From the NCBI RefSeq assembly GCF_009711265.1, contig NZ_WMII01000004.1, forward strand, positions 62,001 through 126,000: DNA of 64,000 nucleotides. Reading direction: 5' to 3'. The DNA comes from Paracoccus shanxieyensis (GTDB taxonomy: Bacteria; Pseudomonadota; Alphaproteobacteria; Rhodobacterales; Rhodobacteraceae). The notes under the pieces were generated by a model, which saw nothing but the letters and a program-made list of their open reading frames with translations, searched no databases and was not told where the DNA came from. This document shows, one piece after another, positions 12,967-50,069 of the stretch (positions are counted from its first letter, which is position 1; each line of letters starts with the position of its first letter). Made by a program: the position numbers and the translations under genes.

Positions 12967-13361
12967 TCAGAATGGGAAATCATGTCATCGCGGTCACGCT
13001 GCCGTCTTTCTCGACCTGCTTTGCCCGGCTCTGGAAGCCGGTCATCGGCGTGAATCCCGCTGACGCCGTGCAGTCGATGGCCAGCCGCATCCTTCCACTT
13101 CATTTCGTGAACACAGCCGCAATCACCTTCAAACCCTTGCCGCAATACTGCCGGACCTGACCTCGTGCCATTGATGCAGGTGATGCGATGCCGGTTCCGC
13201 GCTCCAGACCCGATAGCCCTTCTCGTCACGGGCCACACAGCCTTCCAGCGGGGCGTGAACATGACGGGGAAGTGGGTTAGATCGGGATGCCCGGTGGCAT
13301 GGATACGGGTTCCAAGGGCCAGCACGCTGCTGCTACCGGCAGGGATGCCAGTTCTGCTGCG
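12967..13361 (-). pseudogene. Decayed inverted copy of ssb
   Basis: The minus strand here reads as a diverged copy of the intact ssb gene at 13603-14004. Matching segments in order include the start region (CAGAAC...ATCC...GCCGG), GTGACGAGAAGGGCTATCGG, CGCATCACCTGC, AAGTGGAAGGATGCG, GAGCCGGGC and the end GATGACAT...TTCTGAGC. Even the bases after the stop resemble those after ssb. It lacks the start ATG, and the SSB reading frame is interrupted by small indels, so it is unlikely to make SSB. An old inverted duplication, or capture of an ssb from a related element, would explain it. Confidence 0.7.
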
Positions 13362-13563
13362 CGTCCCCGATTGGCTCTCGAAGGCACCAATCCCTCCGAC
13401 TGACTGATCCCCTAAGTCCGTTCGGTTTCCACCAGCAACCCCGGCGGCTCCGGACCGTGTTGCCGCGCGAGCGCGGCTGCCCGCCCCACTCCGGGCCTTA
13501 GGGGCGAGCTGCCGCAAGGGCGGCAGTTGCGGGAGTCTCCCGACGGCCTTGGCCGGGTCTCGT

Positions 13564-13582
13564 CGGAGGGATGGTCCCTCCG
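13564..13582 (+). promoter_or_regulatory. Leader hairpin before ssb
   Basis: CGGAGGGA-TGG-TCCCTCCG, perfect 8-bp stem ending 20 bases before the ssb ATG and next to its ribosome-binding region. The same core (GGGA-TGG-TCCC) lies before the 54-aa gene at 3018. It could be a shared operator or a translational control element. Confidence 0.4.
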
Positions 13583-13602
13583 AGGAGCAACGGAGACTTA
13601 CA

Positions 13603-14004
13603 ATGCAGAACATCGTCATCCTCGCCGGCAACATCGGTCAGGCCCCCGAAACCCGCACCACCCAGGGCGGCACCTCGATCACCCACTTCAGCCTCGCCAC
13701 GTCGCGCCCCAAATACTCGGAAGGCCGCGTGGTCCGTGACGAGAAGGGCTATCGGGTTCAGGACACGGAATGGCACCGCATCACCTGCTTCAACGGCCTC
13801 GGCAAGACGGTCCAGCAGTATTGCGACACGGGCATGAAGGTTCTGGTTCGCGGCCGCATCCACTACACGAAGTGGAAGGATGCGGAGGGCAACGACCGCT
13901 ACGGCTGCGAGATCATCGCCGAGACCGTCGATTTCCTGAGCCGGGCGAAGCAGACCGAGAACGACGACGGCAAGTTCATCGACGACGATGACATCCCGTT
14001 CTGA
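13603..14004 (+). CDS. ssb: Single-stranded DNA-binding protein
   Basis: Coats single-stranded DNA during replication, repair and conjugative entry. It is a 133-residue OB-fold protein with the SSB opening (MQNIVILAGNIGQAPETR), the WHRITCFN segment near residue 56 and the acidic C-terminal tip DDDDIPF that recruits partner proteins. It is slightly shorter than chromosomal SSB because the disordered linker is short. It is preceded by a hairpin leader and followed by a very strong GNRA-capped hairpin. An element-borne ssb fits a role in the recipient cell after transfer. Confidence 0.95.
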   Translation: MQNIVILAGNIGQAPETRTTQGGTSITHFSLATSRPKYSEGRVVRDEKGYRVQDTEWHRITCFNGLGKTVQQYCDTGMKVLVRGRIHYTKWKDAEGNDRYGCEIIAETVDFLSRAKQTENDDGKFIDDDDIPF

Positions 14005-14017
14005 GCGGGAAGCCAGA

Positions 14018-14043
14018 GGCCCGGCGGCGCAAGCCGCCGGGCC
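14018..14043 (+). terminator. Terminator hairpin after ssb
   Basis: Perfect 11-bp stem GGCCCGGCGGC/GCCGCCGGGCC (14018-14028 with 14033-14043), GCAA tetraloop, followed by TTCC. Confidence 0.65.
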
Positions 14044-14139
14044 TTCCATGTTTACGGTGGGTCGCGCCCGCCGGCTCAGCGCAAGATTCCCCACCGGAAC
14101 GCCATGCGCCTTCGCGCCCGGCGCTCCGATTTCCTTGCC

Positions 14140-14192
14140 GGAGCATCGGATCATTTCCAAAAACAGGAAACCACTTTTTGGTCCGATGCTCC
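14140..14192. repeat. RIME-like palindromic intergenic element
   Basis: 53-bp element with perfect 11-bp terminal arms GGAGCATCGGA (14140-14150) and TCCGATGCTCC (14182-14192), plus inner complementary pieces CCAAAAA/TTTTTGG. Size, arm sequence and inner poly-A/poly-T blocks match the general form of the Rhizobium intergenic mosaic elements (RIME) as I know them. This suggests passage through Rhizobiales. Confidence 0.55.
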
Positions 14193-14198
14193 CCGAAT

Positions 14199-14557
14199 GA
14201 GTAGGGGGCAAGCCGCCCCTCTCAAACTCGCCCCATGAAGGTGCAGGGCTACGCCCCGCCCCCTCCAACTCCCTACCCATGGAGGGGAGACCCCTCCAAA
14301 CCTCCCCTTTGGCGTTGCGCTGAATAATGTCGCGACCCCTGGTCGGGGCCGCGGGCTCCTCTCTCTCTGACTTCGGATCATGCACCAGCCACTCCGGCGT
14401 CAAGGACTTCGCGGTCCCCCAATTTTCAGCCGACGCCCAAGAACATCGTCAGAAAATCGGCTCCACCACTCGCCGCCGCTGGCGGTCGGCTTACGCGATC
14501 CCTGACCCCTCGCGGCAACAGTGCAGGCTCCTCCCGTCAGAACGAAAGGAGAAACAA
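14199..14557 (+). repeat. Leader repeat, copy 1
   Basis: About 360 bp of untranslated DNA leading directly to the ATG at 14558 and closely matching 15199-15559; 14360-14410 is identical to 15361-15411 (51 bases). It contains GC-rich complementary blocks such as GGTCGGGGCC, an AGCCGA/TCGGCT pair and a Shine-Dalgarno (AAAGGAG) at its end. It fills the rest of the gap 14005-14557. Several overlapping frames exist but look like repeat-derived artefacts. Confidence 0.75.
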
Positions 14558-15112
14558 ATGTCTGATCTCGATTTCCTCAATCTCTCAAGAAAGCTTGGCC
14601 GCATCAGAACCAGGGTGCGCAAGAACTACTTCAGGTGCGACACTCGCTTTTCGCAGTCCCTCCATGAAAAGCTGCTTCTTGCCCTCAACGGCCATCTCAA
14701 GACTTGCCGCGAGGGCGCAAAGGTCCAGCGGCGGCTACGGAACGAAAGCGATCCGACGGTGCGCGAGTCCCTTGAACAGACCCTCGGCGACTGCATGGGC
14801 GATCTCGAATCCGGCGGCCGGGGGTTCTATCCTTGGCATCTGCTGGATGCCGTCGATGGTGACCCGGACTTCGGCGGATACCACCACCCCGTTGCGGCCA
14901 TGTGGTGCAATGGCCCGATCCCGGAATGGATGACCGTCGAGGACAAGCATCTGTCCGGCCTTGGTCCCATCCTCCGGCAGATCGCTGCCCAGACAGGTAT
15001 CCGCTTCACCACCTATCTCTGCGATGCCAGCATTGGCCCCGATGGCGCGGGGCAACTCGACCCCGAGATCTACGAGCGCCCGGTCAGCAACTTCCGATAC
15101 CGATACCGATAG
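14558..15112 (+). CDS. Uncharacterised protein, 184 aa (first leader-repeat gene)
   Basis: No family recognised. The ATG follows AAAGGAG at about eight bases at the end of leader copy 1. The N-terminal third is basic and helical (RKLGRIRTRVRKN). The rest is mixed, with Trp and Gly-rich turns and an Arg/Tyr C-terminal tail. No signal peptide. It is followed by a GNRA-capped terminator and then by leader copy 2, so leader, gene and hairpin form a self-contained unit of about 950 bp. Confidence 0.6.
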   Translation: MSDLDFLNLSRKLGRIRTRVRKNYFRCDTRFSQSLHEKLLLALNGHLKTCREGAKVQRRLRNESDPTVRESLEQTLGDCMGDLESGGRGFYPWHLLDAVDGDPDFGGYHHPVAAMWCNGPIPEWMTVEDKHLSGLGPILRQIAAQTGIRFTTYLCDASIGPDGAGQLDPEIYERPVSNFRYRYR

Positions 15113-15115
15113 CGA

Positions 15116-15149
15116 GGTGGCGGGCGGCGGAAGCCGCTCGCCACCTTTT
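15116..15149 (+). terminator. Intrinsic terminator with GGAA loop
   Basis: 13-bp stem with one G-T wobble (15116-15128 with 15133-15145), GGAA tetraloop, then TTTT. Confidence 0.7.
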
Positions 15150-15198
15150 CCCCTGTCGTAATAGCCATACCGACCGGATCGACCGCTCGGCAGGGCTT

Positions 15199-15559
15199 AT
15201 GAAAGGGGGGCAAGCCGCCCCTCTCAAACTCACCCCATGAAGGTGCAGGGCAAAGCCCCGCCCCCTCAAACTCCCCCACCCATGGAGGGGAAACCCCTCC
15301 AAACCTCCCCTTCGGTTCCACCGAATATTGTCGCGGCCCCTAGTCGGGGCCGCGGGCTCTTCTCTCTCTGACTTCGGATCATGCACCAGCCACTCCGGCG
15401 TCAAGGACTTCACGGTCCCCCCAATTTTCAGCCGATACCCAAGGGCATCGTCAGAAAATCGGCTCCCCCGCTCGCCGCCGCTGGCGGTCGCTGCGCGATC
15501 CCTGACCCCTCGCGGCTACGGTGCCCGACCCTCCCGTCAGCGAGAGAAAGGAGCATGAC
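15199..15559 (+). repeat. Leader repeat, copy 2
   Basis: Second copy of the leader at 14199-14557, offset by about 1,002 bp and ending at the ATG at 15560. It carries a perfect GCGGCCCC/GGGGCCGC hairpin (about 15333-15353) at the place where copy 1 has a weaker one. Similarity to copy 3 extends further upstream, to about 15160 (GGATCGACCG region). Confidence 0.75.
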
Positions 15560-15934
15560 ATGACCGAACAAAAGATCATCCGTATCGACGGGGGCAGCGC
15601 CGAATACTGGCGCGATCGCAAGCAGGCTTTCGGGCTTATCCGCGATGCCGAGCTTGCCGCAAAGCGTCTGGCCGAGGCGCCGATGTATCTGCACGGCGGC
15701 TACGACGAGGATGGCGACGTTATCCCCATCGAAAACCTCGGTCCCCACGACGATATGGAGGACGCGATCTGGGCCATCGAGGCCGATCCGACTGCGGTGA
15801 GCATCCTCGTTGCGCAGGGGCGCACGAGCATCGGCGGTCACGAGATCGGGGCTGTGGTTCGCGGTTTCGAACCGGACTACGGGCACATCGAGGACCCGGA
15901 GAGCAATCCGCTCTGGGGACCGGATACCGACTGA
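15560..15934 (+). CDS. Uncharacterised protein, 124 aa (second leader-repeat gene)
   Basis: No family recognised and no visible similarity to the other leader-repeat gene product. The ATG at 15560 follows GAAAGGAG; another ATG at 15555 reads into a stop after two codons. The product is strongly acidic (many Asp and Glu in the second half) with no signal peptide or membrane segment. Small acidic proteins can mimic DNA, but that is only a possibility. A GNRA-capped hairpin follows the stop. Confidence 0.6.
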   Translation: MTEQKIIRIDGGSAEYWRDRKQAFGLIRDAELAAKRLAEAPMYLHGGYDEDGDVIPIENLGPHDDMEDAIWAIEADPTAVSILVAQGRTSIGGHEIGAVVRGFEPDYGHIEDPESNPLWGPDTD

Positions 15935-15940
15935 CCCTTC

Positions 15941-15975
15941 GACGAGAGGCGGCGAAAGCCGCCTCTCGTCTTTGC
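15941..15975 (+). terminator. Perfect 13-bp terminator hairpin with GAAA loop
   Basis: GACGAGAGGCGGC (15941-15953) pairs fully with 15958-15970 around a GAAA tetraloop, followed by TTTGC. Confidence 0.7.
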
Positions 15976-16010
15976 TTCGTCGTCAAAGCCCTGCCGGCCG
16001 GATCGACCGG

Positions 16011-16075
16011 CCCGCAGGGCTGATGAAAGGGGCACGCCCCTCTCAACGCTCTCCCATGAAGGAAGGGGCAAGCCC
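16011..16075 (+). repeat. Leader repeat, partial copy 3
   Basis: Resembles the start of leader copies 1 and 2 (AGGGCTGATGAAAGG, CGCCCCTCTC, CCCATGAAGG). Upstream similarity to copy 2 begins near 15990. After about 65 bases it changes into other GC-rich hairpin sequence (to about 16200). The gap 15935-16377 otherwise holds only the XRE operator. Confidence 0.5.
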
Positions 16076-16319
16076 CCTCCTTCAAACATCCTCCCCAAGG
16101 GAAGGGCTGAAGCCCCTCCCTTGAACCCTCCCATGGGAAGGAGGCGACGGTTCCCTCGCCCTCCTTCCCAAACCCATCCTCCTCTCCCTGGGCCAGGCCA
16201 TTCTGGCCGCGCCGATACGCTGTCGTATGTCCGACCGAATCAGATGGCTGCCTATCCCGCCACTGCGAGGTTGATCACGACGATTCCAGCCGAATTTCGA
16301 GTGGAATTTGAAGGCAGAG

Positions 16320-16334
16320 CGACTATTATAGTCG
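16320..16334. promoter_or_regulatory. Palindromic operator before the XRE gene
   Basis: CGACTAT-T-ATAGTCG, a perfect 7-bp inverted repeat around one base, 43 bases before the XRE start codon. Short symmetrical sites at this position are typical autoregulatory operators of small XRE repressors. Confidence 0.5.
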
Positions 16335-16377
16335 TAGTTCTGGAGTGCGTGCAGGTCTCGGTGGGAGGTGATCATGT

Positions 16378-16626
16378 ATGATCACCGCTCGCCAATCACG
16401 GGCCGCACGCGCGTTGCTGGGTTGGACACAGGAGACGCTCGCTGACAAGGCCCAGGTCGCATTGACCGCACTCAAACGCCTCGAATCCCAAAATGGGCTT
16501 GAGGTGTTCGAGACGACTCGCGATCAGGTTCGCCGCGCTCTCGAAGCGGCCGGCATCGTTTTCCTGTCAACGGATAAGGGCGAAGGCGTCTTGCTCCTGC
16601 ACGAGCGGAGCCCGACGCCGGGTTAG
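16378..16626 (+). CDS. XRE-family transcriptional regulator, 82 aa
   Basis: Small helix-turn-helix DNA-binding protein. The HTH spans about residues 9-37 (RALLGWTQETLADKAQVA, with the typical LxWxQExLA pattern). There is no ligand domain. The palindrome 43 bases upstream is a good candidate for self-repression. It sits directly before a DUF2285 gene and the split activator. In the Mesorhizobium ICEMlSymR7A, a small XRE-type protein (QseC) controls the antiactivator QseM; this gene could play that part, although here it is co-directional with its neighbour. Family assignment is firm, the analogy is inference. Confidence 0.8.
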   Translation: MITARQSRAARALLGWTQETLADKAQVALTALKRLESQNGLEVFETTRDQVRRALEAAGIVFLSTDKGEGVLLLHERSPTPG

Positions 16627-16665
16627 CGTCGTGGCCTGCGCATTGACCCGTTGCCCATAAAAAGA

Positions 16666-17001
16666 ATGGCTATCTCCCGCCGGAGATGGTTAACAAATAC
16701 GTTATCCGATCGTGAGCGACTGATGGGACAAGCGACACAGACATTTCTTGACGAACCACCGTCCAGCCAAACGCTGACACCATATGATCGAGAACACATG
16801 AAGCTCTATATGCGCCTGCTCGACGCAGCGCGCGATGGCGCCGACTGGCGCGAAGCGGTTCGAATCCTCTTCAATCTCGATCCAGAGCGTGATCCCGAGC
16901 GTAGCCGCCGCGTTCATGACGCGCATCTCGCACGAGCGCGTTGGATGACCGAGCGCGGCTATCGCGAACTGGTCCGCGAAAGTCAGCACCGAACATCATA
17001 G
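16666..17001 (+). CDS. DUF2285-type protein, QseM-like antiactivator candidate
   Basis: Protein of about 111 residues ending in a DUF2285-like HTH region (YDREHMKLYMRLLDAARDG through MTERGYRELV), similar in layout to the C-terminus of the split activator gene just downstream. In ICEMlSymR7A, QseM is a small protein of this type that binds and blocks FseA and TraR. The start is uncertain: ATG 16666 was chosen, but TTG 16651 or ATG 16726 are possible and none has a strong ribosome-binding site. Position between an XRE gene and the split FseA-like gene supports the antiactivator reading. Confidence 0.6.
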   Translation: MAISRRRWLTNTLSDRERLMGQATQTFLDEPPSSQTLTPYDREHMKLYMRLLDAARDGADWREAVRILFNLDPERDPERSRRVHDAHLARARWMTERGYRELVRESQHRTS

Positions 17002-17111
17002 CGATGCGCGGGACGCATCACCTGTTGATCCCGACCCAGCTTCCTCAATTCAACCCGAACGGGAATCGTAGAGTCTCTCCAACTTCCTGAGCTGTGACGT
17101 GGGAGGCTCCG

Positions 17112-17336
17112 ATGACACCCAACGCATCTACCTGGCGTTCTTCGGCAGACTACGAGCATCTGGATGTGCTGACGCCATCCGATCTGGCTTGGGAGTGGCT
17201 CCGCCGCAACGATGCCTATGACGCTGATTTTGAGGCATCGGCCTCTGGCCAGGGAGATCCCGAACCGCTGACCGAACGAATCCGGCAGCGGTGGGGACTC
17301 CGATTTCCCCGTCGATCCGCTGGCTGCGCCACCTGA
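17112..17336 (+). CDS. FseA-like activator, N-terminal frame (DUF6499)
   Basis: Encodes the DUF6499-like N-terminal domain (TWRSSADYEHLDVLTPSD, then LAWEWLRRNDAYDADF). It stops after 74 residues if read in frame. Related proteins continue from WGLRFP straight into a DUF2285 region, and exactly that continuation is present in the +1 frame from 17311. In ICEMlSymR7A, msi172 and msi171 are joined in this way by programmed +1 ribosomal frameshifting to make FseA, the activator of the excisionase gene rdfS. Here the two halves, the order and an rdfS-like gene 142 bases downstream are all present. Confidence 0.7.
   Translation: MTPNASTWRSSADYEHLDVLTPSDLAWEWLRRNDAYDADFEASASGQGDPEPLTERIRQRWGLRFPRRSAGCAT
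17301..17313 (+). other. Candidate +1 frameshift site
   Basis: The join between the two frames falls at TTT-CCC-C-GTC, a run of four C (17307-17310). Skipping one base here turns WGLRFP-R into WGLRFP-V and opens 191 further codons. It could be a programmed slip site or an ordinary one-base insertion in a homopolymer. Confidence 0.55.
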
Positions 17337-17886
17337 CGCCAAGGTATTATGGCTTCCGCAGGAGGACACGAGCGTCGTCATACTGGCGAACGCGCCATCG
17401 GAATTTGACGAGCAAATCGGTCTCGCAGCTACCGTGATCTGGCGCGCCCATCCTCGCTCGCAACCTACGGATGAGGACTACCGGCTCGATATTGGCAACG
17501 GACAGCATCTGCAGATCCTCGACTGCACGGCCGGCGACGACAGGATCGCCGTCGCCATCGTTCCGCTCGGCCTGGACGGCTTCGACCGGATCGAAGCCGT
17601 CCGCCGCTTCCTCTCCGCCCTACATGGCCGCGCCATTCCTCCCGATACGCGGCTGACCCGGCAGCAGCGCATACGCCTGCGACGGATGCTTCGCGCCTTT
17701 GACGGACACAGGGCGGGCGCCACACAGCAGGAAATCGCGCAAGTCATCCTGAAGATCGGGCCGCTCGACCGCGATGAATGGCAGGCGTCTTCGGCCCGCC
17801 ACACGATCAAGGCGCTTCTGCGCGACGCCCATTCCATGGTCGCGGGCGGCTATCGAAAACTCCTGCGTCATCGTCGCCAACGCTAG
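17311..17886 (+). CDS. FseA-like activator, C-terminal frame (DUF2285)
   Basis: Second half of the split activator: about 191 codons after the shift, giving a fused protein of about 257 residues. The end is a clear DUF2285 domain: RQQRIRLRRMLRAFDGHRAG, a segment around DRDEWQASSARHTIK, and the final GGYRKLLRH. It has no good start codon or ribosome-binding site of its own (first candidate GTG at 17434), which supports expression by frameshift. The predicted role is activation of the excisionase-like gene at 18028. Confidence 0.65.
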   Translation, partial: VDPLAAPPDAKVLWLPQEDTSVVILANAPSEFDEQIGLAATVIWRAHPRSQPTDEDYRLDIGNGQHLQILDCTAGDDRIAVAIVPLGLDGFDRIEAVRRFLSALHGRAIPPDTRLTRQQRIRLRRMLRAFDGHRAGATQQEIAQVILKIGPLDRDEWQASSARHTIKALLRDAHSMVAGGYRKLLRHRRQR

Positions 17887-18027
17887 CGTAGTTCGACGCC
17901 TGGGCTGGTGGGCGATTTCGATACCCATCAACTTCGCCCTGCAACTCGCCGGCCTCCCTCCGCCACCGTGGTCGTTGTCCCGCCGCTGACTCGCAGTGGC
18001 CGTTCCCAACAGCCCGGAGGCCCGATC

Positions 18028-18309
18028 ATGCCACATGAACCCGTCGTTTTGCCGCCGCGCTTCCTGCGCACCAAGGAGGCTGCGGATTTTCTCAGCCTTT
18101 CGGCCCGGACGCTCGAAAAACACCGCACCTACGGGACCGGCCCTGCCTATCGCAAGCTCGGCGGCCGGGTTGTCTATGCCATCGACGATCTCGAAGCCTG
18201 GACCGAGCGCGGTGCGGTAACCTCCACCTCCGATCCCCGTGGCTCCGTGCTGCCCGCCAAGCGCCACGCCCTTCCGACCGGCCCGCAGGTCGGGCGCTCC
18301 GCCCGCTGA
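18028..18309 (+). CDS. Excisionase-like HTH protein (RdfS-like)
   Basis: 93-residue protein with a winged HTH of the AlpA/HTH_17 type: RFLRTKEAADFLSLSARTLE, GPAYRKLGGRVVYAIDDLEAW. Small proteins of this kind act as recombination directionality factors that help the integrase excise an element, or as simple transcription factors. The position right after the FseA-like gene matches FseA control of rdfS in ICEMlSymR7A. It is followed after 18 bases by repA, so the same promoter may drive excision, replication and transfer genes. Ribosome-binding site CGGAGG. Confidence 0.7.
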   Translation: MPHEPVVLPPRFLRTKEAADFLSLSARTLEKHRTYGTGPAYRKLGGRVVYAIDDLEAWTERGAVTSTSDPRGSVLPAKRHALPTGPQVGRSAR

Positions 18310-18327
18310 TCGCACCCAGTTCCCTTC

Positions 18328-19503
18328 ATGGTGGCGCGACGTCGATCCCTTTCCGAGCGCGGGCAGCTCGACCTGTTCAGGGCGCTCCCCGGCGACTTCG
18401 CGCCACGAGACGCGCAGGATCTCATGGCCTATCCCTTCTTCTCCCTCGGCAAGTCAAAACGTGTCGCGCCCATCGACTTCGCCGCCGGCAATGTGACGAT
18501 CCGGGTCGAGGCGGTCCCCGATCATGGCATGGCGACGATCTGGGATGCGGACATCCTGATCTGGGCCGCCAGCCAGATCGTCGAAGCCCGTGATACCGGG
18601 CTTCGGACGTCCCGGCTGATGGCCGCCACGCCTTACGAAATCCTCACCTATGTCGGGCGCGGCACGTCGCTGCGCGACTACCAGCGCCTGAAGGCCGCAC
18701 TCGACCGGCTGCAATCGACCACCATTTCCACCTCGATCCGGCAACCAGCTGAAGGCCGCCGGCATCGCTTCTCCTGGATCAACGAATGGCAGGAGCGCAC
18801 CGACCGCAACGGCCGCCCCGATGGTATCGAGATGATCGTGCCGGACTGGTTCTATCAGGCCGTCCTCGACGACGCGCTCGTGCTGACCATCGACCGGACC
18901 TATTTCGACCTGACCGGCGGACTCGACCGATGGCTCTACCGCCTAGTGCGTAAGCACGGCGGCCGCCAGCGTGAGGGTTGGCGCTTCGACTTCCGCCACC
19001 TCCATCAGAAGTCCGGCAGCATGTCGCCATTCAAACGCTTCGCTTTTGAGTTGCGCGACATCATCCGACGCCAGCCCTTGCCGGGCTACCGGCTCTTTCT
19101 GGAAGCCGAGATCGGCGGGCGCATGCTGCTCGCCTTCGAGCCGACACCGGCCTGTGGAAAACCTGTGAATGGCCTCGTGCTATCGGGAACCCGGACTATC
19201 GTGCTATCGGGAACCCAAGGCTCGTGCTATCGGGAACCGAAATCGGGCTTAACGCCCGAAGACCACTCGCAAAATCGCGCCCTTAACTTAGAGTCTAACA
19301 AAGACTCTAACCTTGAAGAGCGCGTGCGCGATGTGGAAAACCTCATCCGCGACACCGCCAGAAGCCTCAGCAGAGCCGCTAGGAACGGCGCATCTGCCAC
19401 GCCACGCGCTTCCCAGCCGGCCCCTCAGCCCGGCGGAACCGAGGCTTCCGAAGGTTCCGACACACCCCGCCTTCCTCTCGACTTGCCGGGAGGCGGCCAA
19501 TGA
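18328..19503 (+). CDS. repA: Replication initiator protein RepA, 391 aa
   Basis: Plasmid-type replication initiator of the RPA family, expected to bind iterons and open an origin. Conserved core blocks include DLMAYPFFSLGK (about residue 32), LTYVGRG, and SWINEWQERTDRNGRP (about 150). The C-terminal quarter is low-complexity, contains VLSGT repeats and is encoded by the three iterons described separately, so coding and origin functions overlap. Its stop overlaps parA (ATGA). Replication genes on ICEs maintain the excised circle. No truncation is evident. Confidence 0.85.
   Translation: MVARRRSLSERGQLDLFRALPGDFAPRDAQDLMAYPFFSLGKSKRVAPIDFAAGNVTIRVEAVPDHGMATIWDADILIWAASQIVEARDTGLRTSRLMAATPYEILTYVGRGTSLRDYQRLKAALDRLQSTTISTSIRQPAEGRRHRFSWINEWQERTDRNGRPDGIEMIVPDWFYQAVLDDALVLTIDRTYFDLTGGLDRWLYRLVRKHGGRQREGWRFDFRHLHQKSGSMSPFKRFAFELRDIIRRQPLPGYRLFLEAEIGGRMLLAFEPTPACGKPVNGLVLSGTRTIVLSGTQGSCYREPKSGLTPEDHSQNRALNLESNKDSNLEERVRDVENLIRDTARSLSRAARNGASATPRASQPAPQPGGTEASEGSDTPRLPLDLPGGGQ
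19153..19310. other. Candidate replication origin inside repA: three iterons
   Basis: Three identical 16-bp direct repeats CGTGCTATCGGGAACC start at 19176, 19200 and 19223, spaced 24 and 23 bp, close to two helical turns. Before them lies TGTGGAAAA (19153-19161), one mismatch from a DnaA box on the other strand. After them is a perfect 9-bp inverted repeat in AT-rich DNA, TTAGAGTCT/AGACTCTAA (19288-19296 with 19302-19310). This combination is typical of an iteron origin. Confidence 0.65.
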
Positions 19504-20153
19504 TCATCGCACTCCTCAACCAGAAGGGCGGTGTCGGCAAGACCACGCTGGCGCTGCATCTCGCCGGAGAACTGGCGCAGGGCGGAAAGCGCGTCACACT
19601 TCTCGATGCCGACCCGCAGGGTTCGGCGCTCGACTGGTCACAGCAACGCGCACGCGAGGGCCTGCCTCGACTGTTCGGCACCGTCGGCCTCGCACGGGAC
19701 ACACTGCACCGCGAGGCACCGGAGATCGCCCGCGATGTCGATCACGTCGTCATCGACGGACCGCCGCGTGTCGCCAGCCTCATGCGCTCCGCGCTCCTCG
19801 CCGCCGACCTGGTGCTGATCCCGGTGCAGCCGTCGCCCCTCGATGGCTGGGCCTCGGCCGAAATGCTGGCCCTCCTCGCAGAGGCCCGCATCTATCGGCC
19901 CCAACTCGTCGCCCGCTTCGCGCTCAACCGCTGCGGCGCGCGCACCGTCATCGCCCGCGAAACGGCCGAAAGCCTTGCAGATCACGACCCGCCCGTCCTT
20001 GCCACCACTGTCGGGCAGCGCGTCGTCTTCGCCGACGCTGCACAGTCAGGTCGTCTCGCAGGCGAGATCGACCGCCAATCTCCTGCCGCGCGTGAAGTCG
20101 CAGCGCTCACCGATGAGATTGCGCGGCTGGGCATCGGGAGGGTCGGCCAATGA
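19500..20153 (+). CDS. parA: ParA partition ATPase, 217 aa
   Basis: ATPase that drives partition of the circular form together with ParB. Deviant Walker A KGGVGKTT (about residues 9-16), Walker A' LLDADPQGSA (about 34-43) and Walker B HVVIDGPP (about 82-89) are intact. At 217 residues with no N-terminal HTH it is a short, type Ib-like ParA. Four-base overlaps with repA and the methyltransferase gene place it in a tight operon. parB lies about 18 kb upstream rather than adjacent; the RHH gene at 20890 could be a second partner. Confidence 0.9.
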   Translation: MIIALLNQKGGVGKTTLALHLAGELAQGGKRVTLLDADPQGSALDWSQQRAREGLPRLFGTVGLARDTLHREAPEIARDVDHVVIDGPPRVASLMRSALLAADLVLIPVQPSPLDGWASAEMLALLAEARIYRPQLVARFALNRCGARTVIARETAESLADHDPPVLATTVGQRVVFADAAQSGRLAGEIDRQSPAAREVAALTDEIARLGIGRVGQ

Positions 20154-20893
20154 CCATCCTGACCGGCGACTGCCGCGAAGAAATGCCCTGGCACGCTCCC
20201 TACGACATGATCCTCGCCGATCCGCCCTATGGCGACACCTCGCTCGCCTGGGACCGGCGCGTCGAGGGCTGGGTCGCGCTGGCGCGCGCCGCCCTCAAGC
20301 CGACCGGCTCGCTCTGGGTTTTCGGTTCACTTCGTTCCTTCATGGCGACCGCCGACCACTTCGCCAATGCGGGTCTGCGCATCGCGCAGGAGGTGATCTG
20401 GGAGAAGCAGAACGGCACCGGCTTTCACAATGATCGCTTCAAGCGGGTGCATGAGCTGGCCGTCCAGTTCTATCCGGCAGAGAACGCCTGGCGCGACATC
20501 TACAACGACGTCCAGACCACGCCCGACGCAACGGCCCGCACGGTGCGGCGCAAGCAGCGTCCACCCCATACCGGCCAGATCGACGCCGGCCATTACATTA
20601 GCCATGACGGCGGACCGCGCCTCATGCGCTCGGTCATCTACCTGCGCAACTGCCACGGCCGCGCCATCCATCCGACCGAGAAACCGTCGGCGCTCCTGGA
20701 AATCCTGATCCGCACGAGCTGCCCGGAAGGCGGACTTGTCGGTGACTGGTTCGCCGGTTCCGGCGCAGCCGGGGAAGCCTGTCGGCTTTCCGGCCGGAGC
20801 TATCTCGGCTGCGAGATCGACGCCGACATGGCCGATCTCGCCCGCGCCCGCATCGCCACCGTGCTGCCGTTCCATGACGGAGCCCCGTCATGA
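20150..20893 (+). CDS. Site-specific DNA methyltransferase, 247 aa
   Basis: SAM-dependent DNA methylase with catalytic motif DPPYGD near residue 24 and SAM-binding motif FAGSGAAGEA near residue 201. That order (catalytic before SAM motif) is the beta class, to which N6-adenine and N4-cytosine methylases such as CcrM belong. No restriction enzyme is adjacent, so it is an orphan that may protect the element from host restriction or mark its origin. It lies between parA and the RHH gene with ATGA overlaps at both ends, suggesting a built-in part of the maintenance operon. Confidence 0.85.
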   Translation: MTILTGDCREEMPWHAPYDMILADPPYGDTSLAWDRRVEGWVALARAALKPTGSLWVFGSLRSFMATADHFANAGLRIAQEVIWEKQNGTGFHNDRFKRVHELAVQFYPAENAWRDIYNDVQTTPDATARTVRRKQRPPHTGQIDAGHYISHDGGPRLMRSVIYLRNCHGRAIHPTEKPSALLEILIRTSCPEGGLVGDWFAGSGAAGEACRLSGRSYLGCEIDADMADLARARIATVLPFHDGAPS

Positions 20894-21144
20894 CGGCCGG
20901 CACGGACAAGCGCGGCTTCGCTACGCGCCCAGCCGATCCCGATGGCTGGATCAAGGCTGGCGATGGACGGCCAGCGCGCGATGGCGCCGCAGCCGCCCAT
21001 TCCGCCCGGCTGACGATCGACATCACGCCCGAGCTTCGCGGGCGGATCAAGATCGCCGCGTTCGGGCGCGGCACCACCGTCGCGGACATGCTGCGTGACC
21101 TGCTTGCGCGCGAGTTTCCCGACACAGCGGGAGACCGCCCATGA
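20890..21144 (+). CDS. RHH-like small DNA-binding protein, 84 aa
   Basis: Residues about 41-76 (RLTIDITPELRGRIKIAAF, then VADMLRDLLARE) have the strand-helix-helix pattern of ribbon-helix-helix proteins such as plasmid ParG/CopG types. The N-terminal 40 residues are flexible and charged. Located downstream of parA, it may be the centromere-binding partner of this ParA. Starts and ends with four-base overlaps to neighbouring genes. Confidence 0.65.
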   Translation: MTAGTDKRGFATRPADPDGWIKAGDGRPARDGAAAAHSARLTIDITPELRGRIKIAAFGRGTTVADMLRDLLAREFPDTAGDRP

Positions 21145-21626
21145 TCGGTATCGATGCCCATGATGGCGATCTGACCCGCGTGGAACTGACCTGGGTGGAG
21201 GGCAGGACCGAATACTGGATCAGGTTCGGCCATGAGGCGGGAACGCAGATCCTCGACCGCAACCGGCGCGTCGTTTCTTTCGGTCCTGGTTCGGTGTTCG
21301 CGTTCGTCCGCTGGGCGGCGAACGACCACGGCACGATCATTTCGCGCCTCGACATCCTGCGCGCGGTTGCGCCGGGCGAATCCTATCAGACGCTGCCCTT
21401 CGTCCGTCCGGGCGGCGAAATCCTGCTGAAGATCGAAGGCTGGCCGAAGGTTGAGGCCGTCCTTCGCCATGTCGACGGGATCGAGGCCATTGGCGTCGAT
21501 CCCGCCCAGGTCGATCCCGATCACTGGCGGCATGTCGCCCACTGGATGAACGCAGGCGAAGCGCCGCGTCCTTACACCGCCGAGCGCCATCAGGCATGGC
21601 TCCGGCGCCGGGAGATCGCCCCATGA
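21141..21626 (+). CDS. DUF2840-family protein, 161 aa
   Basis: Matches the DUF2840 proteins found just upstream of traF in alphaproteobacterial conjugative elements. Recognisable parts are TWVEGRTEYWIRFG (about residues 17-30) and the RWAANDHGTIISRLDILRAV segment. It is soluble, without signal peptide. Its function is unknown; conserved linkage to parA and traF suggests a transfer or maintenance role. Four-base overlaps at both ends. Confidence 0.75.
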   Translation: MIGIDAHDGDLTRVELTWVEGRTEYWIRFGHEAGTQILDRNRRVVSFGPGSVFAFVRWAANDHGTIISRLDILRAVAPGESYQTLPFVRPGGEILLKIEGWPKVEAVLRHVDGIEAIGVDPAQVDPDHWRHVAHWMNAGEAPRPYTAERHQAWLRRREIAP

Positions 21627-22168
21627 CGCGCTTTCGCTATGTCATGGTGACGGCGGCGGCCACGCTGGGGATCGCCATCGCCGGATTCGTTCCGACCGCG
21701 CCAAGGCTGCTCTGGAACGCATCGGCCAGCGTGCCGATCGGGTTCTACACCGTCGCGCCCGCTGATCGGATCGAGATGCCCGATCTGGTCGCCGTCATGC
21801 CACCTGAGCCGTTCGCGTCCTACATGGTGGACCGCGGCTACGTCGCGCGCGACGTGCCGCTTCTGAAGCGCGTGATCGGCCTGCCCGGACAGCGCGTCTG
21901 CCGCGCCGGCCGCGCCATCGCCGTCGATGGTGTTCCGCTCGGCGAAGCACGCGACCGCGACAGCCTCGGCCGAGACCTGCCGGTCTGGCAGGGCTGCCGC
22001 GTCATCGCCGAGGGCGAAGTCTTCCTGATGAACCCGGACGTCGGCGACAGCCTCGACGGCCGCTATTTCGGCCCGTTCCCCGCCTCGGCGGTGATCGGCC
22101 GCGCGATCCCGCTTTTCACCGACGAAGACGGCGATGGCCGCTTTGTCTGGCGCGCGCCGATGCGGTGA
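21623..22168 (+). CDS. traF: TraF, S26-family signal peptidase for conjugative pilin
   Basis: Inner-membrane serine protease that processes and cyclises the TrbC pilin in RP4-type systems. One N-terminal TM segment (about residues 7-26) is followed by the catalytic Ser region SASVPIGFY (about 33-41) and the general-base Lys in PLLKRVIGLPG (about 78-88). At 181 residues it has the normal length. It is the last gene of the overlapping operon that begins at repA. Its expected substrate is the TrbC pilin at 32274. Confidence 0.88.
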   Translation: MTRFRYVMVTAAATLGIAIAGFVPTAPRLLWNASASVPIGFYTVAPADRIEMPDLVAVMPPEPFASYMVDRGYVARDVPLLKRVIGLPGQRVCRAGRAIAVDGVPLGEARDRDSLGRDLPVWQGCRVIAEGEVFLMNPDVGDSLDGRYFGPFPASAVIGRAIPLFTDEDGDGRFVWRAPMR

Positions 22169-42715: not shown

Positions 42716-43750
42716 ATGGCAAACTCATCACACTCCCACAGCGACCATGACGGTCACGACCACTCCAAGCACGACCATAACCACGGCGGCGGCCACGATC
42801 ATGGTCACGATCACGATCATGACCACTCGCATGTCCCGACAGTCACGAAGGACAACGAGCGCAAAATCCTCATTTCCTTTTTCATCATCTTCACCTTCAT
42901 GATCGTGGAGGCCGTCGGCGGCGTGATCTCGGGCTCGCTCGCGCTGCTTGCCGATGCCGGCCACATGCTGACCGACGCAATCGCGCTCGGCCTCGCCTAT
43001 GTCGCCTTCCGCCTCGGTCGGCGGGCCGCGGACGGCCAGCGCACCTTCGGCTATGCCCGCTTCGAGGTGATCGCCGGCCTGGTCAACGCTCTTACGTTGT
43101 TCGGCATCGTCGGCTTTATCGTCTATGAGGCTATCGAACGGTTCCAGGAGCCCCAGCCGGTCCTCGCTGGTTCGATGTTCGTCGTAGCCATCATCGGCAT
43201 GCTCGTGAACCTCTTCGTGCTTTGGTATCTGACGCGCGGAGATTCCGAACACGTCAACGTCAAGGGCGCTGTCCTGCACGTCATGGGCGACCTGCTCGGC
43301 TCGGTGGGTGCGATCGTCGCCGCTGTCGTCATCTGGTATACGGGTTGGACTCCTATCGACCCCATCCTGTCGGTATTCGTGTCTCTGCTGATCCTGCGCA
43401 GTGCATGGAGCCTGCTCAAGAACACTCTGCATATCCTGCTCGAAGGCGCACCTGACAACGCCGGCGCCGACAAGATCTCCGAGCATCTTCTCAAGACTGT
43501 TCCTGGTATCCAGAGCGTCAACCATATCCATGTCTGGTCGCTGACCTCCGGTCGTGTGCTGGCGACGCTTCAGGTGCAGCCGATGGAAGGCGTCGATGTT
43601 CGCAGCGTCATGAAACAGGTCGAGGCCGAACTGAAAACGAAGTTCAAAATCGAACACCCGACGATCGGCATCGACTGGGACGGAGTAGCCAGTTGCACCT
43701 TGGAGGAGCCGAACACCGCGGCGCTATCCCATGCGGGTCATTCGCACTGA
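42716..43750 (+). CDS. Cation diffusion facilitator (CzcD/ZitB-like), 344 aa
   Basis: Proton-coupled exporter of Zn(II) and similar ions. A His/Asp-rich N-terminus (about residues 5-40) precedes six TM helices with the transport-site motifs HMLTDA (about 82) and HVMGD (about 191), and a cytoplasmic C-terminal domain ends in HAGHSH. It is transcribed with the arsR gene 45 bases downstream, and the ArsR-type operator lies in its promoter. Substrate range (Zn, Cd, Co) cannot be fixed from sequence. Confidence 0.9.
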   Translation: MANSSHSHSDHDGHDHSKHDHNHGGGHDHGHDHDHDHSHVPTVTKDNERKILISFFIIFTFMIVEAVGGVISGSLALLADAGHMLTDAIALGLAYVAFRLGRRAADGQRTFGYARFEVIAGLVNALTLFGIVGFIVYEAIERFQEPQPVLAGSMFVVAIIGMLVNLFVLWYLTRGDSEHVNVKGAVLHVMGDLLGSVGAIVAAVVIWYTGWTPIDPILSVFVSLLILRSAWSLLKNTLHILLEGAPDNAGADKISEHLLKTVPGIQSVNHIHVWSLTSGRVLATLQVQPMEGVDVRSVMKQVEAELKTKFKIEHPTIGIDWDGVASCTLEEPNTAALSHAGHSH

Positions 43751-43795
43751 TCGGTCGCGCCTGATGGTTCACTCAGTTGATCGGGAAGGTTCGAC

Positions 43796-44140
43796 ATGAA
43801 TATCGCAGAAGCCCCTTCGTCCCAAGAGTTGAACTTTCTCGCTGAAACCTTCCGCCTGCTGGGTGATCCCAGCAGGCTGAAGATTCTCCTGCACTGCGAA
43901 GACGGTCCGAAATCCGTGACCGATATTTCCGAGGCGCTGGAGCTTTCGCAGTCGCTCGTCAGCCATCACCTGCGTCTTCTTCGTGGCGCGCGCCTGGTGA
44001 CCCGTGTTCGCCACTCGAAGCAAATGTTCTACGAGGTCACCGACAGGCATGTCGGTGACGTTCTGCTCGACATGCTCTCGCATGCGCGTGAGGAAAGGGA
44101 AGGCGACCCAAAACGCGACATCATCGGTCCTCGTTCTTGA
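43796..44140 (+). CDS. ArsR/SmtB-family metal repressor, 114 aa
   Basis: Winged-HTH metal sensor: FRLLGDPSRLKILLHC (about residues 18-33), recognition helix region LSQSLVSHHLRLLRGARL (about 50-67) and wing. Cys 33 and C-terminal His and Asp residues are possible ligands. It probably represses its own operon through the site at 42673-42686. It is a close paralogue of the ArsR at 57300, which sits beside zntA with the same operator, so cross-regulation is likely. Confidence 0.85.
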   Translation: MNIAEAPSSQELNFLAETFRLLGDPSRLKILLHCEDGPKSVTDISEALELSQSLVSHHLRLLRGARLVTRVRHSKQMFYEVTDRHVGDVLLDMLSHAREEREGDPKRDIIGPRS

Positions 44141-44164
44141 GCAGCCCTTCGCTGGCCTGTGACA

Positions 44165-46561
44165 CTAAATGTCGATCTTGGTAGTTCTCAATCGCAAAGC
44201 GTTGGCAATGACGCTGACCGAAGAGAGCGCCATGGCCAGTGCGGCAAGCGCCGGTGACAACAGCAGCCCCATCACGGGATACAGTAACCCGGCCGCCACC
44301 GGCACGCCTGCCGAGTTGTAGAAGAATGCGAAGAACAGGTTCTGCCGGATATTGCGCATTGTCGCTCCCGACAGGCGACGCGCCTTCACGATCCCCAATA
44401 GGTCACCGCCTAGCAGCGTGACTCCCGCGGATTCCATGGCGACATCCGTTCCTCCGCCCATCGCTATGCCGACATCGGCAGCCGCAAGCGCTGGGGCGTC
44501 ATTCACCCCATCGCCCGCCATGGCGACGATACGGCCTTCCTTGCGAAGACGTGTAACAACCTCGCTCTTGCGTTCTGGAAGCACCTCGGCCTCCACATCG
44601 GCGATGCCCAGCTCTTTTGCCACCGCCTGAGCCGTGAGCTTATTGTCACCAGTCATCATGACCACGCGGATGCCGTCCTTTCGGAGGGCTTCCAGCGCTG
44701 CCGGCGTAGTGGATCGTATGGGATCGGCCACGCCGATGGCGCCGACGGGCCGGCCGTCGATGGCGACCAAGACGGCGGTGGCCCCGCGTGAGCGAATGAC
44801 GTCCGCCTCGATCGCCGCTGCGCCCGGCTGAACGCCTTCCAGCTCCAAAAACTTGGCGCTACCGATCAGCACGCGCTGACCGGCGACGGTTCCCAAGACT
44901 CCCCGACCGACAGGAGAGTCGACGTCCGAGGGTTCCGACAGTGCGAGCTGCTTCTCCACCGCGGCACGGACAATAGCCTGTGCAATCGGATGTTCGCTCG
45001 CACGTTCAAGGCTCGCCGCGGCTTGAAGAAGTTCCGTCTCGCTCCGCCCATCGACCGGAACGATGGCCGTGACGGCCGGTTTCCCCTCCGTAAGCGTGCC
45101 GGTCTTGTCGACCACGAGGGTATCGATCTTCTCCAGCCTTTCGAGCGCCTCGGCGTTCTTGATCAGCAATCCGAGATTGGCGCCTTTGCCGACGCCAACC
45201 ATGATCGACATCGGCGTTGCAAGGCCAAGGGCGCATGGGCAGGCGATGATGAGAACAGAAACAGCCGCAATCAGGCCGTAACTCAACCGGGGTTCCGGGC
45301 CAAAAAGGGTCCAGGCCACAAAAGCGATCAAGGCGATAACGATGACCAGTGGAACGAACCAGCCGGACACCTGGTCTGCTAAGCGCTGGATCGGGGCGCG
45401 GGACCGCTGCGCCTGCGCCACCATCTGGACGATCTGCGAAAGCATGGTATCGCGACCAATGCGAGCCGCATCCATGACCAGAGCGCCAGATTGATTGATG
45501 GTCCCTGCGATGAGCTTTGCACCCGGCTCTTTCGTGACCGGCATCGATTCGCCGGTAATCATCGATTCATCGACGGCCGAACGCCCCTCCAGCACCGTCC
45601 CGTCCACCGGAACTTTCTCGCCCATGCGAACACGAAGCTTGTCGCCGACGGCAATATGCTCGACCGCCACCTCCTCGTCGGTGCCATCTGGCCGGATACG
45701 TCGGGCTGTCTTCGGAGCCAGGTCAAGAAGCGCGCGTATCGCGCCCGAGGTCTGTTCGCGCGCGCGTAGCTCCAGCACTTGGCCGAGCAGCGCCAGCACC
45801 GTGATCACCGCGGCCGCCTCGAAGTAAACCGCAACGGTGTCTCCCATCATCCGCGCCGTTTCCGGGAACAGGTCGGGGGCGAGCGTTGCCACCACGGAGT
45901 AAATCCAGGCAACGCCTACGCCCATCGCGATGAGCGTGAACATATTGAGCGATCGGTTCACCACGGACGCCCAGCCGCGCTGAAAGAACGGCCAGCCTGC
46001 CCACAGCACCACCGGCGTCGCCAGTATGAGTTGCAGCCAGTTGTTGATCTGGCCAGGAATGTAACGATGCAGGCCGAAAAGTTCGCTGCCCATCCCAAGG
46101 AAGACCACCGGAACAGAAAGGGCGGCACCCACCCAGAACCGTCGAGTCATGTTGACCAGTTCCGCACTGGGTCCGGTTTCGGCCGTCGGCATTTCGGGTT
46201 CCAGCGCCATCCCGCAGATCGGGCATGATCCTGGACCGACCTGACGGATCTGGGGGTGCATCGGACAGGTAAAGATCGTGCCCTCCGGCACTACCGCTGC
46301 CTGGGTCGGTTCCGATGGTCCAACATATTTGCCCGGATCGGCCATGAACTTGGTCTGGCAGTTCTCGGAGCAGAAATAATACGTCGCGCCCTGGTATTGG
46401 GCTCGGTGCTTAGCCGTTGTGGGATCCACGGACATCCCACAAACGGGGTCCTTCACAGTATCGCTTGCCTCCGCAGTCGCGGTGTGATGGCCCGATCCGC
46501 CACCGTGCCCCTTGTTATGGGCATGGGCGGCGCCTTGATGATGGTTATGGTCGTGAACCAT
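44165..46561 (-). CDS. Copper-type P1B ATPase with YHS domain (CopB/SilP-like), 798 aa
   Basis: ATP-driven metal exporter. Layout: His-rich N-terminus (1-30), YHS-type domain (about 37-80, VCGMSVDP and FCSENC), metal-binding domain with CPMHP and CPICGM (about 99-120), TM region with CPC near 440, DKTGT phosphorylation site near 483, TGDN and GDGVNDAP motifs, and final TM pair. It lacks HMA domains, unlike the copA gene product. It is the last gene of the leftward unit csoR-grx/MauE-DUF305-ATPase and converges with arsR, ending 24 bases from it. Confidence 0.9.
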   Translation of the reverse strand: MVHDHNHHQGAAHAHNKGHGGGSGHHTATAEASDTVKDPVCGMSVDPTTAKHRAQYQGATYYFCSENCQTKFMADPGKYVGPSEPTQAAVVPEGTIFTCPMHPQIRQVGPGSCPICGMALEPEMPTAETGPSAELVNMTRRFWVGAALSVPVVFLGMGSELFGLHRYIPGQINNWLQLILATPVVLWAGWPFFQRGWASVVNRSLNMFTLIAMGVGVAWIYSVVATLAPDLFPETARMMGDTVAVYFEAAAVITVLALLGQVLELRAREQTSGAIRALLDLAPKTARRIRPDGTDEEVAVEHIAVGDKLRVRMGEKVPVDGTVLEGRSAVDESMITGESMPVTKEPGAKLIAGTINQSGALVMDAARIGRDTMLSQIVQMVAQAQRSRAPIQRLADQVSGWFVPLVIVIALIAFVAWTLFGPEPRLSYGLIAAVSVLIIACPCALGLATPMSIMVGVGKGANLGLLIKNAEALERLEKIDTLVVDKTGTLTEGKPAVTAIVPVDGRSETELLQAAASLERASEHPIAQAIVRAAVEKQLALSEPSDVDSPVGRGVLGTVAGQRVLIGSAKFLELEGVQPGAAAIEADVIRSRGATAVLVAIDGRPVGAIGVADPIRSTTPAALEALRKDGIRVVMMTGDNKLTAQAVAKELGIADVEAEVLPERKSEVVTRLRKEGRIVAMAGDGVNDAPALAAADVGIAMGGGTDVAMESAGVTLLGGDLLGIVKARRLSGATMRNIRQNLFFAFFYNSAGVPVAAGLLYPVMGLLLSPALAALAMALSSVSVIANALRLRTTKIDI

Positions 46562-46626
46562 AGTAAGCCTCCGCTTCCCTTATCTACCCGCATGCAGGTT
46601 GCCACCGCATGCGAACCAAGCCCCGA

Positions 46627-47130
46627 CTAATCGTTCAGCCGGCCAGCAATCGCCTGCATTTGCTCGATCTCGCGACGCTGGGCGACCTCAATCTCTTCAC
46701 ACAACGCCAGAAGCTCGGCGTCCGACAGGTTGGCCTCTCTGCACATCAAGATGGCTCCCGAGTGATGCGGAATCATCGAGTCGATAAACTGGCGGTCATC
46801 GATCATGGCTTGGGATCGAGTCGCCCAAAATGATCCCAGGGTAAGGACGACAAAAAGCACATAGAGGACAATATTCACGCTGCGGTTCGGAAACATGCCC
46901 GGCATCGTCGCCAGCATGAAGATGCCCATCGGCGCCCACATGGTTATCGCCATGTAAAGCATGTTCAGATTGTTCCGGAAGTCACCCCAGCCGTCGATCA
47001 TCGAAAACATCACGACATACATCACGATGAGGCCGAGGATCATGTTGATCCAGAACATCAGATAGGGACGGCCATGGGAGCCGTGGCTATTCCCCGAATG
47101 CCCGCCATGAGCCGTGTGGTCGCTCGCCAT
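46627..47130 (-). CDS. Membrane-anchored DUF305 protein, 167 aa
   Basis: Begins with a His-rich stretch, then three hydrophobic segments (about residues 23-44, 56-77 and 85-105), then a C-terminal DUF305 part with the motif IDSMIPHHSGAILMC (about 115-129). DUF305 proteins have His/Met sites and occur in copper-resistance loci; copper binding at the membrane is the likely role. It sits between the copB-type ATPase and the glutaredoxin-MauE gene in one leftward unit. Confidence 0.8.
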   Translation of the reverse strand: MASDHTAHGGHSGNSHGSHGRPYLMFWINMILGLIVMYVVMFSMIDGWGDFRNNLNMLYMAITMWAPMGIFMLATMPGMFPNRSVNIVLYVLFVVLTLGSFWATRSQAMIDDRQFIDSMIPHHSGAILMCREANLSDAELLALCEEIEVAQRREIEQMQAIAGRLND

Positions 47131-47151
47131 TTGATCGTCCTTTCGCGGTTG

Positions 47152-47913
47152 TCAGTGTCCAATGCCCATCGGCTTGAAGATCATCCAGACCGCCATGCCG
47201 ATCATCATGAGGTTCTCGGTGAGCGACACGAAGCCGAGCGGCACGTTGCTGTCGCCACCGACGCAGGCGCATTTCAGCTCGCGCCTGTCGATATAGACCG
47301 CCTTGAACACCGAGACCGCGCCGATGCCGCCGATGAACAGCGCGACGGGGATCGACACCCACATCAGGGCACCGGAGATCATCAGGACGCCGGCGAGCGC
47401 CTCCGCGAAGGGATAGATGTAGGCATATCGGACCCATCGCTGCGCCAGAAGGTCGTAGTTCAGGAACATGGTCGCGAAGCCTTCCACGTCCTTCAGTTTC
47501 TGAAGGGCAAGAAGGCACATCGCGATGGCGATGAGCCATTCGGCGGCTTGGACCGTCGCGAGGTTCCCGAACGCCGCCCAACTCGCGGCCAAAGCCATTA
47601 GGGCAGCCATCGCGAACAGCGCGATCACCGGCTTGTAGGTAACGGCATCCTTGTCCTCGACCTTGCCGCCGAAGAACCGGACGAGATCATCGTAACCGCC
47701 GATCCGCTTGCCGCCTATGAAGGTCTGCGGCGTCGATTGAACATCATGCTTTGCCTTGAAGGCGTCCGTCTCCGCGCGGGTCGTCAGATGGTGATCGTCG
47801 ACCTCGTAGCCTTCCCGCTTGAGCAGATCGAGCGCTTTCAACCCGTAGGGGCAGGTATGGTTTTCCATCACCATTCTATGAAGTTCGGCGCGTTTGGCTG
47901 CATGGGTCGCCAT
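47152..47913 (-). CDS. Glutaredoxin-MauE/DoxX fusion membrane protein, 253 aa
   Basis: N-terminal glutaredoxin domain with active site CPYG (about residues 21-24), the cis-Pro segment STPQTFIGGKRIGGY (about 60-74), then four TM helices of the MauE/DoxX type (about 92-245). A second Cys pair, CACV, lies near residue 222. It would couple cytoplasmic thiol chemistry to the membrane, plausibly countering copper-induced disulfide stress. It is second in the csoR operon. The fusion is known from other metal loci but poorly characterised. Confidence 0.8.
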   Translation of the reverse strand: MATHAAKRAELHRMVMENHTCPYGLKALDLLKREGYEVDDHHLTTRAETDAFKAKHDVQSTPQTFIGGKRIGGYDDLVRFFGGKVEDKDAVTYKPVIALFAMAALMALAASWAAFGNLATVQAAEWLIAIAMCLLALQKLKDVEGFATMFLNYDLLAQRWVRYAYIYPFAEALAGVLMISGALMWVSIPVALFIGGIGAVSVFKAVYIDRRELKCACVGGDSNVPLGFVSLTENLMMIGMAVWMIFKPMGIGH

Positions 47914-47930
47914 AGTCTGATCCCTTCGAT

Positions 47931-48206
47931 CTAAAGTTTCGCTTTCGCGAACACCTCCACCAGTTCATTGAACTTGGCGCGCTGAAGGTCTGCATCGCCC
48001 GATGCGATCGCCTCCTCGACGCAGCAGGCGGCATGCGATCGCAACACCTGGTTCTCCACCTTGGAGAGCGCGGCTTTAACCGCGTGGATCTGGTTGAGAA
48101 TGTCGATGCAGTATCGCTCGTCCTCGACCATCTGGCCGACACCGCGAACCTGCCCGGCGATCCGGTTGAGCGACGCGATGATCTGCTTGGAATTTTTGTT
48201 GCACAT
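47931..48206 (-). CDS. csoR: CsoR/FrmR-family copper-sensing repressor, 91 aa
   Basis: All-helical DUF156-family repressor. Ligand positions of the Cu(I)-sensing CsoR class are present: Cys in DERYCIDIL (about residue 33), then His and Cys in LRSHAACCV (His about 58, Cys about 62). Copper binding would release the operator. ATG 48206 was chosen because the family's usual N-terminal start lies here; longer frames run into the promoter. First gene of the leftward unit; a palindrome typical of CsoR lies 6-26 bases upstream. Confidence 0.85.
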   Translation of the reverse strand: MCNKNSKQIIASLNRIAGQVRGVGQMVEDERYCIDILNQIHAVKAALSKVENQVLRSHAACCVEEAIASGDADLQRAKFNELVEVFAKAKL

Positions 48207-48211
48207 CCAGC

Positions 48212-49507: not shown

Positions 49508-49515
49508 AACGCAAT

Positions 49516-50047: not shown

Positions 50048-50069
50048 GAACAATCTCCCATATGTAAGG

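Follow-up and report, generated by a model that had tools for sequence, protein, structure and literature searches.

The genes and sites described below, up to and including traF, all lie on the forward (+) strand of the window, by which we mean the whole 64,000-nucleotide stretch of Paracoccus shanxieyensis DNA that was analysed. The regulatory block begins with a gene for an XRE-type regulator (16378-16626), which is QseC-like by position only and whose match to HTH_3 (E 1.6e-4, 22 bits) falls just under the 23-bit cut-off. It is followed by a gene for a lone DUF2285 protein (16723-17001), a predicted QseM-like antiactivator that matches both RovC_DNA-bd/DUF2285 (E 1.5e-8) and the solved structure of QseM (PDB 7uqt, E 1.2e-19). 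A DUF6499 frame (17112-17336; PF20109, Trans_reg_dom/DUF6499, E 1.7e-24) then runs through TTT CCC CGT at 17304-17312 and ends in a TGA at 17334-17336, and a second frame, in the +1 phase and open from 17311 to 17886, holds a middle part and DUF2285 (PF10074, E 7.9e-33); we read the two as the first and second halves of an FseA-like activator. The last gene of the block encodes a predicted RdfS-like excisionase (18028-18309) with matches to HTH_17 (E 1.1e-9) and to RdfS itself (PDB 8dgl, E 3e-10), a winged HTH protein whose gene lies upstream of traF and a relaxase gene, as expected of RdfS. These identities and their order were computed directly from the sequence and from Pfam matches, and they agree with the original prediction at the coordinates it gives; translating 17112-17886 with a +1 step at the joint also reproduces its read-through product of 257 aa.

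The arrangement resembles that of FseA (msi172-msi171) on ICEMlSymR7A of Mesorhizobium japonicum R7A, in which DUF6499 and DUF2285 likewise occupy two frames joined by a +1 shift, with an SD-like UGGGG at WGL ahead of the joint, as described in a passage of PMC10359603. The order of DUF6499 before DUF2285 that is typical of FseA is present here (PF20109, PF10074), and the AWEFLRRN-like FseA motif occurs as AWEWLRRN, with Trp replacing Phe34. A lone DUF2285 antiactivator (QseM in R7A, predicted here) and an RdfS-like HTH gene are also common to the two systems, although, unlike in R7A, the XRE, QseM-like, FseA-like and RdfS-like genes of the window form one co-directional block. The frameshift switch is of a known type, of which this is another member; the same passage of PMC10359603 counts 4709 FseA homologues, ∼61% of them with the halves in separate frames and the +1 site conserved.

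Conservation of the phase and the joint

Related loci were found by similarity to the second half of the window's gene, the best 80 of the 95 found being kept and the first half then sought in each. With the window added, and with the copy in G001, the nearest genome examined, left out, this set comprises 81 loci; collapsing identical second halves leaves 62 distinct loci, which are related and so do not count as independent events. All 81 loci (the window and the best 80 of 95) show the same +1 phase at one site, which is far beyond chance. The phase that the original prediction had proposed to compare with relatives is conserved, and the gene is split in every one of the 81, with none of these close relatives in the single uninterrupted frame that would have marked the split as an ordinary indel or sequencing error. 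Purifying selection acts on both halves (median pN/pS 0.29 and 0.41, with 61 comparisons each), and the residues after the joint are conserved in the alignment as xDPxxxPPxAxVxWLP. The tail of the zero frame beyond the joint varies from 1 to 58 codons in the window and best-80-of-95 set. Among plasmids, 49 records match, 39 of them covering at least 80% of the fusion, and 38 of these 39 match in two pieces; the single one-piece record, pBAL398.2, has a stop in its DUF6499 frame.

The frameshift site of the window (17292-17310) reads TGG-GGA-CTC-CGA-TTT-CCC-C and opens with an SD-like G run. Across the 62 distinct loci (the window and the best 80 of 95) the TGG is followed by GGG in 47, GGA in 6, GGT in 5 and AGG in 4, giving TGG-GG or TGG-AG in all 62, comparable to the UGGGGG-like sequence at WGL; the next codon is TTG in 49, CTG in 6, TTA in 5, and CTC and GTG in 1 each. 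CGA and UUU then follow in 62 of 62, where the approximate background in the same genes is ∼101 UUU among 381 Phe codons and ∼199 CGA among 1743 Arg codons. The codon after UUU is CCC in 55 loci, CGC in 6 and CCU in 1, so that the phase and CGA-UUU-C are shared by all 62. The sequence TTT-CCC-C-GTC, at which the original prediction had joined the frames, is indeed there, but taking its C run as the joint holds only in part: the comparison with relatives shows that the base after CCC may be G, C, T or A, which rules the run out as a conserved signal.

Where the ribosome would slip

From 299 genomes sampled evenly across the phylum, 27 of which have DUF6499, we took 30 more distant loci. In 19 of these the two halves stand in different phases and the first frame contains a stop (one being the G001 copy of the window); the rest comprise 5 in one frame (phase 0), 4 in which the second half was not found and 2 unclear cases. 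Leaving the window's copy aside, 18 loci are split; the joint can be read in 15 of them, and 14 of the 15 carry UUU-C, the exception (L096) carrying UGU-C. In some, the codon after UUU is CGC, CGU, CGG or CAC. The joints of plasmid records, some of them close relatives, have UUU-C in 10 of 10, with CCC, CGC or CGG following UUU, and UUU-C is absent from both of the distant one-frame homologues whose joint could be read (L104 and L105). The codon before UUU is CAG, CAT, TGC, ACG, TCT or CGG in distant loci and plasmids outside the window's clade, and among the sequences compared the invariant CGA is limited to that clade.

Given that CGA-UUU-C is invariant in the window's clade and the C run is not, the data favour sliding of tRNA-Phe from UUU to UUC, and we infer that this movement would account for all of the readable split joints among the distant loci and plasmids except one. 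The closest rival to this step places the slip on tRNA-Pro, moving from CCC to CCN, and leaves the remaining model unchanged. CCC follows UUU in 55 of the 62 distinct loci (the window and the best 80 of 95), and, as every CCN encodes proline, the product would be the same; however, in 7 of the 62 this codon is CGC or CCU, and in distant loci and plasmids UUU-C persists with CGC, CGU, CGG or CAC as the second codon, from which the tRNA could not re-pair after a slide of one base. We regard a tRNA-Pro slip as unlikely. The UUU-C rule for a tRNA-Phe slip narrows the slip site and may be a new, if small, detail. UUU-C also stands at the +1 slip site of PA-X (UCC_UUU_CGU; PMC3498833), a parallel in the site alone, since PA-X is an unrelated gene read by a eukaryotic ribosome.

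A second alternative does without slippage, the second half being a separate protein that starts internally by means of the SD-like G run, so that two polypeptides are made. There is a ribosome-binding-like G run ahead of the joint, annotations give the second gene its own start codon, and GTG stands at the joint in 9 of the 62 distinct loci (the window and the best 80 of 95). The other 53, however, have no ATG, GTG or TTG in the +1 frame within the interval of -4 to +2 codons around the joint, and still the protein sequence is conserved from the joint onward; initiation, moreover, would require neither the fixed UUU nor the fixed CGA. We therefore reject an internal start, for which the start codon near the joint is not conserved, as very improbable. 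Least credible of all is a sequencing error or recent one-base indel in an ordinary fused gene, which could draw on the four-C run at the window's joint and on the one-frame distant homologues (5 of 30 loci in phase 0) but which we reject for the family in view of the identical phase in 81 of 81 loci (the window and the best 80 of 95), the purifying selection on both halves, the presence of TTTCCCC in only 17 of the 62 distinct loci of that set, and the identical joint sequence in five other assemblies (L003-L007), which lies within 99.95-100% identical DNA and argues against an error in the base count.

Partner regulators and the candidate FseA box

The genes around the split fseA-like gene are conserved with it. 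In the best-80-of-95 set the XRE gene is present in 77 of 79 loci and the lone DUF2285 gene in 79 of 79. Where the original prediction had noted a palindrome belonging to the XRE gene, we find two: CGACTA-N3-TAGTCG upstream of the gene (16320-16334), exact in 45 of the 59 loci of the best-80-of-95 set in which the XRE gene was located, and GGTGATCAT-GT-ATGATCACC (16367-16386), which covers the ribosome-binding region and overlaps the start codon and is exact in 47 of the same 59. The mRNA could also fold at the latter, with an 8-bp stem.

For the lone DUF2285 protein, the equivalents of QseM Arg28 and Asp31, located by way of a tag offset inferred to be 11, are kept in 62 of 62 distinct loci (the window and the best 80 of 95); their replacement abolished the activity of QseM, according to a passage of PMC10359603. 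By a count of charges in the sequence, the window protein does not have the overall negative charge of QseM, its net charge being 0 and that of its domain +2, compared with +12 for the FseA domain, and we therefore call it QseM-like. Over the 62 distinct loci of the same set, the median net charge is -3 for the lone DUF2285 protein (range -6 to 2) and +10 for the FseA domain.

Upstream of rdfS, pattern and position point to a candidate FseA-box-like inverted repeat, GGCGAT-N16-TTCGCC (17911-17938). The published FseA box is described in a passage of PMC10359603 as a pair of inverted hexamers, separated by 15 or 16 bp, whose central bases are conserved, and the repeat of the window, with its inverted hexamers, central CG and 16-bp spacing, is likened to it by architecture. 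A 16-bp spacer is also described for R7A; the candidate stands 90-95 nt ahead of the start codon of rdfS, compared with 62-67 in the logo published in PMC10359603. As a raw pattern count, GGCGA[AT]-N15/16-TTCGCC occurs upstream of rdfS in 47 of 60 loci of the best-80-of-95 set, the exact pattern being absent from the other 13, and the consensus of the same stretch also contains other perfect 6-bp inverted repeats with spacings of 5 or 7 bp. The FseA/QseM/RdfS identity that the original prediction had proposed is thus supported by the family matches, the relatives of solved structure, the conserved +1 phase and this candidate FseA-box-like repeat.

The genes after rdfS, the element and the proposed switch

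Beyond rdfS lie genes for a replication initiator protein A (18328-19503; PF10134, E 1.3e-91), a ParA-family ATPase (19500-20153; AAA_31, E 1.5e-22) that overlaps repA at an ATGA, a DNA methylase (20150-20893; N6_N4_Mtase, E 7.7e-34), a ribbon-helix-helix protein (20890-21144; RHH_10, E 2.1e-6), a DUF2840 protein (21141-21626; E 3.9e-75) and a TraF-like S26 peptidase (21596-22168; Peptidase_S26, E 2.7e-30). A relaxase follows downstream, with DUF3363 and Relaxase matches and a score of 593 bits to the RlxS model, under its cut-off of 850. The operon of R7A is rdfS-traF-msi107 (in passages of PMC11963761 and PMC5882170), and the window differs from it in having repA, parA, the methylase, RHH and DUF2840 genes between rdfS and traF. 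The series repA-parA-methylase-traF given by the original prediction therefore captured a real insertion with respect to R7A but omitted the RHH and DUF2840 genes between methylase and traF.

The description of this arrangement as unlike the model holds against R7A, but among relatives it is usual, with RepA after rdfS in 72 of 78 loci and ParA in 60 of 70 (best-80-of-95 set), and it has been published. A passage of PMC8627217 reports that all other identified Mesorhizobium ICEs carry, between rdfS and traF, a DUF2840 gene and a putative initiator of the Rep_3 superfamily, that both genes were lost from the symbiosis ICEs, and that the same arrangement occurs on distant ICEs and plasmids; that passage names neither parA nor methylase, and its initiator corresponds by position to the RPA-type gene here. 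Hence the arrangement with a replication gene in this block is already known, and we do not claim it as new. On plasmids, Haematobacter pOT1-2 keeps the order XRE, DUF2285, DUF6499, DUF2285, HTH, RepA and ParA but, unlike the window, has no methylase after parA. In Mesorhizobium pMLb the HTH gene is followed by RepA, DUF2840 and S26 peptidase as in the window, but parA is missing from this place, and ∼4.5 kb separate the HTH gene from the DUF6499/DUF2285 pair that precedes it.

A tyrosine integrase (Phage_integrase, E 4e-17) lies ∼7.9-6.5 kb to the left of the window and adjoins an imperfect repeat of the 3' part of tRNA-Arg (86% over 49 nt), the matching part being within the tRNA-Arg at 62503-62579. 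G001 (contig C1) carries the 3.9-kb block with 100% identity; flanked as it is by the integrase and the tRNA-Arg repeats, the block is probably part of an ICE of some 70 kb; conjugation genes match the TraG and TrbE models above cut-off. A search of G001, the nearest genome examined and not the window's own assembly, found no LuxR-type receptor (PF03472), for which an E. coli control matched, and no match to LuxI (PF00765), for which the control had no match either. Given that no such receptor was found in this genome, the input is probably not that of the R7A model (TraR/TraI, LuxR/LuxI). The absence of the receptor from this nearest carrier may be a new observation, again a small one, and such carriers might allow the frameshift and the antiactivator to be examined independently of quorum sensing.

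We interpret the locus as an ICEMlSymR7A-related transfer-control module in which the two frames are one fseA, expressed by +1 programmed ribosomal frameshifting, and put the probability of this full model at about 0.92. The SD-like G run would slow the ribosome at CGA-UUU-CCC, where the P-site tRNA-Phe could slide from UUU to UUC and so yield the 257-aa activator. This FseA would bind the inverted repeat at 17911-17938 and turn on rdfS (18028), with the closely packed genes that follow, repA-parA-methylase-RHH-DUF2840-traF, carrying the activation onward; expression as a single transcript is suggested by the gap of only 18 bases after rdfS and by the ATGA overlaps between later genes. The lone DUF2285 protein (16723) is predicted to block FseA by binding its DUF6499 half, the XRE protein may set the amount of it that is made, and the FseA-like activator would start excision of the element. 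We would give only even odds to the broader proposal that the slip is a group-wide single-tRNA event (P-site tRNA-Phe from UUU to UUC, an SD-like stall and a clade-specific E-site CGA), coupled here to a quorum-sensing-free switch, made up of the frameshift, the QseM-like protein and the XRE regulator, that would activate excision, replication, partition and transfer together, in a single operon. To a known translational switch the window adds what looks like a clean copy that has spread recently.

Several further features of the element were observed. A complete tRNA-Arg(CCG) stands at its right end with a 5'-half-like copy just beyond (62503-62746), and 3'-half-like copies lie further left (C1:151220-151268 and C1:175944-175997 of G001); there are apparently tandem elements at one tRNA-Arg site, and the element perhaps brings its own complete tRNA gene. 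The cargo at 42716-60471 (a cation efflux protein, three P-type ATPases with metal-binding or YHS domains, a multicopper oxidase and two DUF305 proteins) looks like a set for copper or heavy-metal handling. The 8.57 kb at 13311-21883 recur with 99.95-99.98% identity in Paracoccus sediminis, P. aurantiacus, Gemmobacter serpentinus and an Erythrobacter MAG; another MAG has a 4.26-kb piece of them at 100% identity. This near-identity may reflect recent spread or, for the MAGs, a binning error. Upstream of the regulatory block, direct repeats of ∼340 bp at 14204-14540 and 15206-15540 are 90% identical.
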